This document shows, in pieces, positions 23,406 through 28,960 of a DNA stretch of 64,000 bases. Location of the stretch: positions 1,563,789 to 1,627,788 of the forward strand of contig NC_009440.1 of assembly GCF_000016605.1 (NCBI RefSeq), read 5' to 3'. The notes beneath the pieces are model-generated. The model was given only the letters and a program-made list of their open reading frames with translations. It had not been told where the DNA came from and searched no databases. The translations under genes and the position numbers were made by a program. Source of the stretch: Metallosphaera sedula DSM 5348. GTDB lineage: Archaea > Thermoproteota > Thermoprotei_A > Sulfolobales > Sulfolobaceae. Positions within the stretch are counted from its first letter, which is position 1, and every line of letters starts with the position of its first letter.

Positions 23406-23792
23406 ATGTCTGAACAGGTCACGTTCCAATCCCACGAAGACAGAATAGTAGGGAAACATGTTTTCGGAAACCTATACGACATTGACCCGGAAGACCTGAA
23501 CAACGAGCAACTCCTCAAGGATCTAGTTCTGAAGGCAGTTGAGATCGCTCACATGAACCTGGTCGAGGCTAAGTCCTGGAGCTTCGGTGGAAAGAAGGGC
23601 GGAGTCTCGGTCATAGCCCTAATTGAGGAGAGCCACATCGCACTTCATACATGGAACGAATATAACTACGCTACCCTAGACGTTTACACCTGCGGAGAGG
23701 ACAGCGACCCCCAGGCTGCTTTCAAGTTCATCGTTGAGGCCCTAAAGCCTAGGCGGTACCAAGTCTTCTTCGCAGATAGAAGCTCCAGTTAA
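23406..23792 (+). CDS. pyruvoyl-dependent arginine decarboxylase proenzyme (SpeD/AdoMetDC family)
   Basis: The 128-residue protein belongs to the prokaryotic S-adenosylmethionine decarboxylase family. The self-cleavage site is E75-S76 in [11 protein letters not shown], which gives the pyruvoyl group on the alpha chain; C96 (YTCGED) is the conserved catalytic cysteine and the N-terminal [12 protein letters not shown] is typical. Sulfolobales have two such paralogues: a true AdoMetDC and one that evolved into arginine decarboxylase. As I recall, in S. solfataricus the ArgDC gene lies beside the HMG-CoA synthase/reductase cluster, exactly as here, so I call arginine decarboxylase (arginine to agmatine). 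AdoMetDC is the alternative. A T-run follows the stop. Confidence 0.8.
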
Positions 23793-23839: not shown

Positions 23840-23848
23840 CTTTATAAT
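23840..23848 (+). promoter_or_regulatory. TATA box of the mevalonate operon
   Basis: CTTTATAAT centred near 23844; 26-27 nt downstream is the ATG at 23870, so the HMG-CoA synthase mRNA is probably leaderless. Confidence 0.6.
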
Positions 23849-23869: not shown

Positions 23870-24916
23870 ATGCATACAGGTATCATTGGATGGGGCTCTT
23901 ACGTTCCGAAGTATAGAATTAAGGTAAGCGATATTGCCTCTGTTTGGGGCAAGGAGGAGGGAGTTGTTAAGGCACTAGGTCTCACGGAGAAGTCAGTTCC
24001 AGCAGCTGATGAGGACTCAACGACGATGGCAATTGAGGCCTCTAGGGATGCCCTAACGAGGGCAATGATTGACCCTAGGGAAGTTGAGATGGCACTCTTT
24101 GGTTCTGAGTCAAAGGTTTACGCAGTGAAGTCAACCTCAGCGATCCTGATAGACGCGCTTGGTCTGTCCAAGTTCTCCTTAACGGCAGACCTAGAGTTCG
24201 CCTGCAGGGCTGCTTCGGCAGGACTCAGGATGGCTTTCTCCATGGTCGAGAGCGGTCAGGTTTCCTACTCCCTAGTGGTTGGATCTGATACGGCCCAATC
24301 CAACCCAGGTGACGTCCTCGAGTTAAGCTCTGCCGCAGCTGCAGTTGCCTTCGTTGTCGGAAGAGCGGAGGAGGCCTCAGCTGTGGTCGAGGCGAGTACA
24401 TCCTACGTTACCGATACCCCGGATTTCTGGAGGAGGGATGGAATGCCTTACCCGCTTCACGGGGAGGCCTTCACAGGAGAACCAGCTTACTTTGCCCACA
24501 TTTATGAGGCCGTGAATAGGTTGCTTCAGGACACCGGGCTCAAGGTTTCTGACTTTGACTACTTTGTGTTTCACCAACCCAACGGAAAGTTCCCGTTCCA
24601 GATGGCCAAGAAACTTGGGGTACCACTTGAAAAGGTGAAACAGGGGATGGTCTCAACCCTGATTGGGAATCCCTACAATGCCTCGGCTCTCCTCGGGTTC
24701 GCGAGGGTACTAGATGTGGCCAAGCCTGGCCAGAGGGTTCTCGTTGCTCCCTTCGGGAGCGGTGCTGGAAGTGACGCATACAGCTTCGTGATAACTGATA
24801 AGATCCTTGAAAGACAGAAGTTAGCCCACACCACGGACTACTACATCCAAAGAAAGAAGCTCGTGGATTACGCGAGTTACGCAAAGACAACCCACAAGTT
24901 CAAGGTTTACGACTAG
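23870..24916 (+). CDS. hydroxymethylglutaryl-CoA synthase
   Basis: The 348-residue enzyme has the archaeal HMGCS features: catalytic C112 in [12 protein letters not shown]80 (GSESKVY), H235 in [10 protein letters not shown] and the [12 protein letters not shown] and [12 protein letters not shown] blocks. It condenses acetyl-CoA with acetoacetyl-CoA to HMG-CoA in the mevalonate pathway to isoprenoid lipids. In archaea it forms a complex with a thiolase and a DUF35 protein, and those two genes follow here. It is the first gene of the operon. Confidence 0.93.
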
Positions 24917-24926
24917 GTGAAACCCC

Positions 24927-26009
24927 ATGAACGTTTTCGTTGCCACAGGATCTACCCTGAGGGTTGATAGGTATTATGAGAATAGCCTCCTGGACCTCGC
25001 CATAGCTGCGGTCTCGGAGCTCGAGGAGGAGCTTAGCGAGCACAAACCCGACGTTCTCCTACTGGCCAACGCCTATGGTGAAAGTACCGAGGAGCAGGTT
25101 CAGCTCGCGGGGAAACTTGCAAGAGCCCTAGGTTACAGAATCCCAGCTATCCGTGTCGAGAACGGAGACGCAAGCGGAGGATCTGCAATCTACTCCGCTT
25201 ACTCCCTAGTGAAGTCGGGCACGGCTAAGTCAGTGTTGGTGGTTGGAGCCGAGAAACTCGGCGATTTCCCCGCATCTCACCTGAACGACATACTGGCTGA
25301 GAACCTAGATGAGGAGTTCTCCTACAGGGCCGGGGTAATCCCTCAGGCCTTCGCTGCAATCCAGATGAAGCTCTACATGAGGAGGTACAACGTTCCCAGG
25401 GAGTACTTCGCTGAGTGGCCCTATCTCATGCACAAGTATGCCTCTGAGAATCATTACGCTTACCTGAAATTCCCCGTGGATAAGGAGACGATCCTTTCCT
25501 CACAGGTTGTGTCTGACCCGCTCAGGCTCTTCGACACGGCTGCGAGGGCAGACGGAGCCTCAGCAGTCCTGATCACGAACGAAGAGGTCGCGAGGAAGGT
25601 TAGCGAGGCACCTGTGAAGATAGAAGGGGTTAGCTTCTCAACTGCTGGGGTTAACCTGAGGGAATTGCTCTCCGTTAGGGATGCCGTATCCCCATGGAGG
25701 GAGTTTAAGCCTGACTTCTACGAAATCCACGATTCCTACAGTGTTACCGCGGCCATGATCCTAGACGAGCTAGGTCTTGAGAGGGGAAAATCCCTTCTTC
25801 ACCTTGATCAAGTTCAGGTTAACTACTCCGGAGGCCTAAAGGCAAGAGGTTACCCGGGAGGCGCCACGGGAGTTTACCAGGTTGCTGAGGGATATGCCCA
25901 GCTCACGGGGACATTCAAGGGGAGAAGGGTTAAGGACGCAAGGAGGGGGCTCGTTGTATCCATGGACGACCTGGGTTCAGTTGCGGTTACCGTAGCTCTT
26001 TCGAGGTGA
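24927..26009 (+). CDS. thiolase-fold protein of the HMG-CoA synthase operon, lacking the catalytic cysteine
   Basis: The 360-residue protein has the SCP-x/archaeal acetyl-CoA acetyltransferase fold: RVENGDASGGSAIYSAYSLV, EIHDSYSVTAAM (H268) and NYSGGLKARGYPGGATGVYQ. By family alignment from memory the nucleophilic cysteine of the ACASGG motif is D81 here (GDASGG), and the histidine of the GHP-x-GATG motif is Y309. I find no cysteine anywhere in the protein. The operon position between HMG-CoA synthase and DUF35 is that of acetoacetyl-CoA thiolase, but with these changes it may be a structural partner rather than a condensing enzyme. It begins 10 nt after the previous stop with GGTGAAA before the ATG. 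Confidence 0.85.
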   Translation: MNVFVATGSTLRVDRYYENSLLDLAIAAVSELEEELSEHKPDVLLLANAYGESTEEQVQLAGKLARALGYRIPAIRVENGDASGGSAIYSAYSLVKSGTAKSVLVVGAEKLGDFPASHLNDILAENLDEEFSYRAGVIPQAFAAIQMKLYMRRYNVPREYFAEWPYLMHKYASENHYAYLKFPVDKETILSSQVVSDPLRLFDTAARADGASAVLITNEEVARKVSEAPVKIEGVSFSTAGVNLRELLSVRDAVSPWREFKPDFYEIHDSYSVTAAMILDELGLERGKSLLHLDQVQVNYSGGLKARGYPGGATGVYQVAEGYAQLTGTFKGRRVKDARRGLVVSMDDLGSVAVTVALSR

Positions 26010-26013
26010 GAAT

Positions 26014-26421
26014 ATGAGGATTCTACCACCTAAGATCTGGAGAAACAAGGATACCCACTACTCTCTCGTGGCCTCAGTCTGCGAGAAGTGCGGTCATGTG
26101 AACTTTCCAGCCAGGACTGTATGCAGTAACTGCGGTTCCTTCAGGGTAACCACCAAGAGACTCTCAGGGAAGGGGGTACTTGTGTCCTACACGGTTTCCC
26201 ACCAGGTCAGGACTGGCCACGAGAAGGAATCCCCAGTCTATTACGGTCTCATAAGGCTCGACGAGGGGGTTGAGCTAGTAGCTCCCCTGGTAGACGTAGA
26301 CGAGGAACCTAGGGAGGGACAGAGGGTAGAGGCCACAATAAGGAGGTTAAGGGTTGACTCTAGCAATGGGCTTATAGAGTACGGCACGAAATTTAGGTTG
26401 GTAAGTGATGGACAAAATTGA
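26014..26421 (+). CDS. DUF35 OB-fold protein with zinc ribbon
   Basis: The 135-residue protein has an N-terminal rubredoxin-like zinc ribbon (C23, C26, C37, C40: CEKCG...CSNCG) and a C-terminal OB-fold (about 50-130, SYTVSHQVR...). In archaeal thiolase/HMG-CoA synthase complexes this DUF35 protein bridges the two enzymes and can bind CoA, so that acetoacetyl-CoA is channelled. It begins 4 nt after the thiolase-like gene and overlaps the reductase gene by 14 nt. Confidence 0.9.
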
Positions 26422-27640
26422 TGAAGTTGTGGAGAAGGTAGTTAAGGGAGAGATAGAGCTTCACAAGGTTGATGAGCACCTCGATGGAAACGCTGCCGTA
26501 GTAGCCAGGAGGATGGCAATAGAGAAGCTCACGGGAAAGAGTTTTCCTTCGATTGGGGCAACGATCATAGACTACCTCGATGTTAAGGGAAGGAACGCCG
26601 AGAACGTGATAGGGGCTGCCCAGGTACCTCTAGGGGTCGCCGGTCCCATCATGGTTGAGGGAGATTATGCTAAGGGCTCATTTTTCGTTCCCCTTGCCAC
26701 GACGGAAGGGGCGTTGATTGCCAGCGTTAATAGGGGAATGAAGGTCCTGAGACATGCTGGCCCCGTTAGGACAAAGGTCCTGAGAGATGGGATGACAAGG
26801 GCTCCAGTGTTTACCTTTGAGTCAGCGCTGGACGCCTTCAAGTTCACGGAATGGGTCAAGAGCAACTTTCAGGAGATAAAGAGGGTTGCCGAGTCTACCT
26901 CGTCTCACGCTAGACTTATCAAGATAGATCCACTACAGCTCGGAAATAACGTCTGGCTGAGGTTTGAGTATGAGACCGGTGATGCCATGGGAATGAACAT
27001 GGTTACCGTGGCAACCGAGGCCGCATGCTCCTACCTAGAGGAGAAGTTCCCCAGGGCGAGGTGCGTTGCAGTTAGCGGAAATGCCTGCAGTGACAAGAAA
27101 CAGTCGATGACCAACGAACTCCTGGGAAGGGGTAAGAGCGTGGTCGCTGAGGCATTGATACCCTCAAGGATTCTCGAGACTCACCTGAGAACTACTGCAG
27201 ACAGGATTCAGGAGGTCAACCTGAGAAAGAACTGGTTGGGTGGAGCTAGGGCTGGCACAATCTTCCAGTTCAATGCCCACTTTGCAAACATCATTGCTGC
27301 TATCTTCATCGCCACAGGACAGGACGTTGCGCAGGTGGTTGAGAGCAGTACGGGTTATACCTGGGTAGAGAACAGGAACGGTGATCTATACATCTCCGTC
27401 ACCCTTCCCTCCCTCGAGGTAGGTACTGTTGGAGGAGGGACGAGGTTACCCACGCAAAGGGAGGCCCTCTCTATGATGGGAGTAGACGGAGGTGGCAATC
27501 CACCTGGGAGTAATGCCAGAAAACTTGCAGAGATAATCTCCGCCGCCGTCTTGGCTGGCGAGCTGAACCTTCTGTCTGCTCTCTCCACAAGGGAGCTAGG
27601 GAAAGCACACCTGCGCTTAGGTAGGGGCATGAAGACTTAA
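26408..27640 (+). CDS. hmgA: 3-hydroxy-3-methylglutaryl-CoA reductase (NADPH, class I)
   Basis: The 410-residue enzyme carries the class I HMGR motifs: [30 protein letters not shown] (catalytic Glu), DAMGMNMVT with the NADP-binding region, [11 protein letters not shown] (catalytic Lys), [10 protein letters not shown] (Asp) and the C-terminal HLRLGRG with its histidine. It reduces HMG-CoA to mevalonate. Archaeal members lack the membrane domain, as here. I take the ATG at 26408 (a GTG precedes it at 26405); the start lies inside the DUF35 gene. A T-run follows the stop. Confidence 0.95.
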
Positions 27641-27664: not shown

Positions 27665-28960
27665 ATGGACGTTCAAAAGGAACTCGAAAAAGTGATTGAG
27701 CTCACCAGAAGTCAGAACAGGTGGAGAAGGACTGAGACCATCAATCTGATTGCCTCCGAGAACGTTATGAGTCCCTTGGCTGAAGCCCTCTACATGAGCG
27801 ATTTCATGTCAAGATACGCTGAGGGAAAACCCTTCAAGAGGTTCTATCAGGGAACGAAGTACGTGGATGAGGTCGAGACTCTGGCCATGGACTACATGAA
27901 CCAGGTCACGGGGAGCAAGTTCTGCGACCTAAGACCCACAAGTGGTACGTTGGCCAACGCCGCAGTGTTCAGGGTTCTGGCCAATCCTGGAGACAAGGCT
28001 TTAATCGCACCGGTTCAGGCTGGGGCTCACGTTAGTCACACAAAGTTTGGAACCCTTGGGGCCCTTGGAATAGAGCACATAGAGATGCCATACGATGAGG
28101 AAAACATGAACGTTGACGTGGATAGGGCAGTGAAAATGATAGAGCAGATTAAGCCCAAGTTCGTTGTTCTGGGAGGTAGCCTTTACCTTTTCCCGCATCC
28201 CACTAAGGACCTCGCGCCTCACGTTCACTCGGTGGGGGCAAAGCTGGTGTATGATGCAGCCCACGTTTATGGGCTCATGACTGGTAAGGTCTGGAGTAAT
28301 CCTCTTGATGAGGGAGCTGACTTCCTTAATGTTTCTACCCACAAAACTTTTCCAGGACCTCAAGGCGGAGCCATATTCTCGAACGAGGAGGAGGAGTTCA
28401 AGAAGGTGTCTAGGACAATCTTCCCCTGGTTCGTGAGTAACCACCATCTACATAGGTTACCCTCCACGGCTGTAACTGCGCTCGAGATGAAGGTTTACGG
28501 GGAGGATTACGCTAAGCAGATAACCAGGAACTCGAAAGCCTTGGCGGAGGCCCTAGCCTCTTTCGGCTTCAAGGTGATAGGAGAACACCTGGGATACACC
28601 AAGAGTCACCAGGTTGCTGTCGACGTGAAGAACCTTGGAGGAGGAGCCTACGTTGCGAAGACTCTCGAGAGTGCTAACATCATAGTGAACAAGAACCTCT
28701 TACCTCACGATCCACCGGAGGCAGTTAATGATCCAAGCGGAATAAGAATTGGGGTTCAGGAAATGACGAGATTCGGGATGAAGGAGGGTGAGATGGAAGA
28801 GATAGCAGAATTGATGAAGCAGATCCTCGTGGATAAGAGGGACATTAACGAGATGAGAAGGAAGGTAACCGAGATGAGATCCAGATTCCTTGAGGTTAAG
28901 TACGCGCTAACGTATGATCTGTCCAAGTATAACTCAAAGCTGATCCCGATGATACTCTAG
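27665..28960 (+). CDS. glyA: serine hydroxymethyltransferase
   Basis: The 431-residue PLP enzyme shows the SHMT blocks [55 protein letters not shown] with the PLP lysine (THKT) and a C-terminal part typical of archaeal SHMT. It interconverts serine and glycine with a tetrahydropterin C1 carrier. The glycine cleavage and serine synthesis genes in this same window complete that metabolism. 25 nt after hmgA. Confidence 0.95.

Follow-up and report, generated by a model that had tools for sequence, protein, structure and literature searches.

Archaea depend on isoprenoid lipids, whose synthesis begins with a step usually attributed to a thiolase gene of the kind described here. The acetoacetyl-CoA thiolase subunit of Methanothermococcus thermolithotrophicus (PDB 6esq and 6et9) bears a catalytic cysteine and histidine, and the DUF35 protein of that organism is reportedly the scaffold of a complex of thiolase, HMG-CoA synthase (HMGCS), and DUF35. 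Genes for these three proteins also lie next to one another in the 64,000-nucleotide stretch of Metallosphaera sedula DSM 5348 DNA that was analyzed (the window, whose numbering is used throughout), and the Methanothermococcus subunit is the best structural match of the thiolase-like one. However, the window protein has D81 and Y309 at the catalytic positions and lacks the oxyanion-hole glycine.

The thiolase-like gene starts 10 bp after the HMGCS gene and ends 4 bp before the DUF35 gene (Table 1). The initial annotation had placed it between these two genes, and the TIGR00748 and PF01796 matches on either side bear this out. Inferred from paralogue order, the gene is probably Msed_1647. The TATA-box-like element upstream of the HMGCS gene, found by inspection only, is probably the promoter of a leaderless operon; a consensus promoter and terminator scan gives counts near chance. 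By eye, a small ORF just upstream of the operon (23406-23792) resembles archaeal S-adenosylmethionine decarboxylase, and an ORF 24 bp 3' of the HMG-CoA reductase (HMGR) gene (27665-28960) resembles serine hydroxymethyltransferase (SHMT). An aIF5A pull-down from Sulfolobus solfataricus contains SSO0534 (acetoacetyl-CoA thiolase) and SSO0530 (SHMT) (PMC6105217). The numbering suggests that the two genes belong to the same cluster.

Table 1 Features of the thiolase-like gene and its operon, in window coordinates.
Feature	Position	Strand	Basis or remark
TATA-box-like element TTTATAAT	23841..23848	+	~22 nt upstream of HMGCS ATG; by inspection
Archaeal HMG-CoA synthase, catalytic E80, C112, and H235 intact	23870..24916	+	TIGR00748, 431.7 bits
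Thiolase-fold protein without catalytic Cys (probable pseudo-thiolase subunit)	24927..26009	+	ORF, Pfam, HMMER, AlphaFold2
D81 codon (GAC), thiolase nucleophile position	25167..25169	+	D in 22/22 Sulfolobaceae orthologues
R207 codon	25545..25547	+	Invariant in Sulfolobaceae; I/V in Cys-bearing outgroups
H268 codon (HD motif)	25728..25730	+	H in 20/22 Sulfolobaceae
Y309 codon (TAC), replaces GHP His	25851..25853	+	Y in 19/22 Sulfolobaceae, H in 3
D347 codon, replaces invariant Gly of C-terminal GG (oxyanion-hole) motif	25965..25967	+	
DUF35/ChsH2-type zinc-ribbon OB-fold protein, four zinc Cys intact	26014..26421	+	PF01796
HMG-CoA reductase (class I)	26405..27640	+	17 bp overlap with DUF35 gene

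The thiolase-like product is 360 residues long, has no cysteine, and matches both Thiolase_N and Thiolase_C_1 of Pfam. Its best sequence matches among solved structures are the Pyrococcus thiolase (7yvy), ST0096 (4yzo), and the Methanothermococcus complex thiolase (6esq). In HMMER alignments, D81, which sits in IRVENGDASGGSAI, is opposite the cysteine of 7yvy and 6esq, and Y309, which sits in RGYPGGATG, is opposite their GHP/GHA histidine. H268 is kept in the sequence EIHDSYS. The translation and the alignments, including the one with the Methanothermococcus thiolase that had been proposed as a check, thus agree with the residues first noted from the sequence: no cysteine, D81 for the nucleophile, Y309 for the GHP histidine, and H268 retained. 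A further loss had been missed: D347-D348 stands where Cys-bearing relatives have the invariant Gly-Gly of the oxyanion hole. The protein has the thiolase fold expected of an acetyl-CoA C-acetyltransferase (EC 2.3.1.9), but none of the nucleophilic cysteine, the GHP histidine, and the oxyanion-hole glycine. The change at the nucleophile site is the point that matters; the Cys-free whole chain, also stressed initially, is incidental and was dropped as the key feature, because several orthologues carry one cysteine elsewhere. The AlphaFold2 model has a mean pLDDT of 95.2, and its best PDB match is 6et9_C (Foldseek E 7.3e-33; Z 53.7, rmsd 1.5 over 358 residues), so the thiolase fold is intact as modeled.

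All 22 orthologues from Sulfolobaceae (f1) are full-length ORFs in the order HMGCS-thiolase-DUF35, with HMGR next. S272 is invariant among them, as are D81 and R207; D347 is present in 21, and the two that lack H268 have serine. D81, R207, and D347 may touch one another in the fold. The seven outgroup thiolases of the same order all have cysteine at position 81, with Ile or Val at 207 and Gly at 347, which answers the initial call for an alignment within Sulfolobales. The comparison of M. sedula with M. javensis gives dN/dS values of 0.049 for the thiolase-like gene, 0.008 for HMGCS, 0.021 for DUF35, and 0.031 for HMGR. The estimate rests on this pair; in most of the others, synonymous sites are saturated. 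Judged by this ratio, the thiolase-like gene is under purifying selection. Together with the 22 orthologues, the ratio also indicates that D81 is neither chance nor a sequencing error.

The initial annotation treated the gene as a single oddity, but the feature recurs across the phylum, and Cys-less HMGCS-linked proteins in other families refute a restriction to Sulfolobaceae. A scan with an HMGCS alignment yielded 80 named loci, picked by HMGCS and not by thiolase; the family names of coded genomes are inferred. At most of these loci, the linked thiolase-like protein has Glu at the nucleophile position (Acidilobaceae, Caldisphaera, Aeropyrum, Thermodiscus, Hestiella, Zestosphaera, and others), and at some it has Gly, His, or Asp. 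The Thermoproteaceae-like group f18 has Asp, with RGN replacing GHP. In other groups surveyed the residue is Gly, Thr, Ser, or Ala, and in several it is still Cys; most Pyrodictiaceae keep ACGSGG. Further regions beyond the named loci give the same Cys-less pattern. Several Desulfurococcaceae and relatives (L049-L053, L065, L082, L087, and L088) have the DUF35 gene directly after HMGCS with no thiolase gene between, and related complete genomes have a single Cys thiolase located elsewhere. At L320:1660-2895, an HMGCS-linked thiolase-like protein has a deletion in the nucleophile loop and lies beside an HMGCS ORF of ~507 aa. Cys loss as a general consequence of the HP/HB carbon-fixation cycle was discarded, because the Aeropyrum, Caldisphaera, and Thermodiscus loci and group f18 are also Cys-less. 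In the open-access literature we found no paper reporting the loss, though it could already have been mentioned in the 2018 PNAS paper about the complex.

Counting as distinct the proteins with <97% identity, cysteine is lost in 104 of 129 HMGCS-linked proteins (Cys 25, Glu 44, Asp 43, Gly 10, others 7). The 36 distinct unlinked archaeal-type thiolases have Cys in 33 cases and Ser in 3. From a Cys codon, Asp requires two base changes and Glu three; Gly or Ser requires one. Because Asp or Glu is nevertheless kept in 87 of the 104 Cys-less proteins, an acid at the site is probably selected. On a tree of 134 rows with column 81 left out, the Cys/non-Cys pattern requires at least six changes, and 75 Cys-less rows fall to one side of a single starred branch; the tree is a quick search with long branches present.

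The other catalytic residues are lost less uniformly. In the 71 Asp/Glu rows, Cys is lost in all, Gly347 in 85%, the GHP histidine in 42%, and the HD histidine in 17%, with both histidines mostly retained in the Glu lineages. Replacements are lineage-specific: Y, N, or E for the GHP histidine, S, R, or G for H268, and D, N, G, or S at 347. In the same 71 rows, K110, H169, D209, G210, D269, N299, G302, G303, K305, and G308 are invariant. The partners are intact: E80, C112, and H235 of HMGCS are invariant in 85/85 operons, and so are the zinc cysteines of DUF35 in all 81 sequences covering them. The ratio of thiolase to HMGCS divergence is 1.59 in 74 Cys-less operons versus 1.09 in 11 Cys-bearing ones (~1.5x), the pairs not being independent.

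Other thiolases are present in the same genomes, as established by PF00108 searches of 58 genomes with motifs read from the loci. All 42 genomes with a Cys-less HMGCS-linked protein carry another thiolase, which has Cys in 40; in the remaining two (G008 and G019), the only other thiolase is a Ser-type protein. Where a genome has a single thiolase, that thiolase has Cys (10/10 and 3/3 read), and no single-thiolase genome without Cys occurs. The HMGCS-linked protein is the only thiolase in 6/9 genomes if it has Cys versus 0/42 if it does not (Fisher p = 4.7e-6); the p value is not corrected for shared ancestry, and its true weight is smaller. Within group f9, three genomes that are 98-99% complete (G008, G019, and G029; loci L174, L172, and L355) have no Cys thiolase by PF00108, and the one other thiolase they encode, linked to DUF35, is of the Ser type (ENTSGSGG, with GHP retained) and by its motifs a candidate serine thiolase. 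The initial question of other thiolase genes in the M. sedula genome has a positive answer: it encodes a bacterial-type canonical Cys thiolase (L163) and two archaeal-type ones (L008 and L009). Four more thiolase-like proteins of this genome lack the nucleophile cysteine (one, with Ser, in L007; two in L010; one in L012), and these probably include Msed_1290, 0270, and 0271, thiolase candidates in the literature (PMC7078158). Msed_0656 is the characterized β-ketothiolase of M. sedula, and Msed_1647 is a candidate whose activity is not determined (PMC7078158).

We consider it probable that the window protein is a conserved pseudo-thiolase of the archaeal thiolase/HMGCS/DUF35 complex that has lost acyl-transfer chemistry, with acetoacetyl-CoA made elsewhere. 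The complex, CoA binding, inactivity, and supply route are inferred, and there are no activity or complex data. Most likely the subunit would still fold, dimerize, and dock with DUF35 and HMGCS, and it may retain its own side of a shared CoA pocket, supporting HMGCS structurally or as a ligand-binding partner and not as the maker of acetoacetyl-CoA. The acetoacetyl-CoA would be supplied by a different thiolase and, in Sulfolobaceae, also by the HP/HB cycle, of which it is an intermediate; a link to this cycle may still hold for supply in that family. In M. sedula the putative source is the carbon-fixation enzymes or Msed_0656. A possible advantage is that a complex-bound thiolase would be unable to cleave acetoacetyl-CoA, its favored reaction. 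The pseudo-thiolase reading accounts for operon retention, the intact fold, the relaxed rate, and the second thiolase in every genome checked. The scaffold fed by another thiolase, proposed at the outset, is well supported by those second thiolases, by the relaxed rate relative to HMGCS, and by the lineage-specific residue decay. Against it, the retained acid and the invariant residues indicate that the pocket is not simply decaying, leaving ligand binding or unknown chemistry possible, and the compared genomes share ancestry.

The different chemistry that was the initial alternative to a scaffold is not excluded, because Asp and Glu are kept in most lineages despite their distance from Cys codons. 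In such a Cys-free reaction, D81 (or Glu) would act with H268, Y309, and D347 as acid/base at a remodeled site, for example in decarboxylation, enolization, or aldol reaction on a CoA thioester. The invariance of D81, R207, and S272 in Sulfolobaceae fits this idea, but the partner residues vary by lineage (H/Y/N/E at 309, H/S/R at 268, and D/N/G/S at 347), position 81 is Gly, Leu, Thr, or Gln in some lineages, and we know of no extra reaction required between acetoacetyl-CoA and HMG-CoA. We therefore regard it as unlikely, although in thiolase-fold aldolases that have DUF35 proteins as partners, the acid/base pairs are formed by Tyr or Cys (PMC12329534). Alternatively, the emptied pocket could bind CoA, acetyl-CoA, or acetoacetyl-CoA and tune HMGCS activity as a regulatory sensor. 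The residues surrounding the pocket are invariant in the Cys-less set, and the Methanothermococcus complex is reported to have a CoA site common to both enzymes (PMC12329534), but direct evidence is absent and the idea overlaps with a scaffold role, so that as a separate explanation it seems quite improbable. A wider proposal is conceivable but doubtful: that among the Thermoproteota sampled, the HMGCS-bound thiolase was turned more than once into a protein with an acidic site, whose selected function, whether catalysis or ligand sensing, needs no Cys and controls entry to archaeal lipid synthesis.

An active acetoacetyl-CoA thiolase with D81 as nucleophile, proceeding via a mixed anhydride, would agree with the fold, the operon position, the retained H268, and the listing of the gene as a candidate of undetermined activity (PMC7078158). 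It is very hard to reconcile with the loss of the GHP histidine and the oxyanion-hole glycine as well as the cysteine, and with the constant presence of Cys where a genome has a single thiolase. Functionless decay can be given almost no credence: the gene evolves faster than HMGCS, but its dN/dS, its full-length ORFs throughout Sulfolobaceae, and its retained operon place speak against it.

The loss of catalytic residues is, on present alignments, common to M. sedula and most relatives sampled, with the partner genes still adjacent. If most Thermoproteota have an inactive subunit, the usual gene assignment is wrong for them, and metabolic models need another source of acetoacetyl-CoA; the channeling described for Methanothermococcus could also not work identically. 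Lineages whose complexes are alike except for Cys, Asp, Glu, or Gly at a single site are natural comparisons for the non-catalytic role of the thiolase subunit.

Other known systems resemble the window protein in part. ST0096 of Sulfolobus tokodaii (4yzo) is also an archaeal thiolase fold without the nucleophile cysteine, but it has Ser at the site and keeps GHP, and its homologues, L007 among them, lack the linkage to HMGCS and branch as a clade of their own. The steroid aldolases Ltp2 and Sal (6ok1 and 9myr) combine a thiolase fold and a DUF35 partner with an unused thiolase nucleophile, showing that the fold can work without it (PMC12329534). Their catalytic base comes from a YDHF/YDCY motif (PMC12329534), whereas the window protein has HDSY, with H268 and not Tyr at the first position; Y309 might correspond to the second catalytic tyrosine, Tyr344 of Ltp2, but no alignment covers that part. 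The PhlABC Friedel-Crafts acylase (5m3k) has a like three-part architecture, in which one thiolase-superfamily subunit lacks catalytic residues (PMC6392133). It is the mirror case: there the HMGCS-like PhlA no longer has its Cys and Glu, and activity lies with the thiolase-like PhlC (PMC6392133); in the window operon the situation is reversed.
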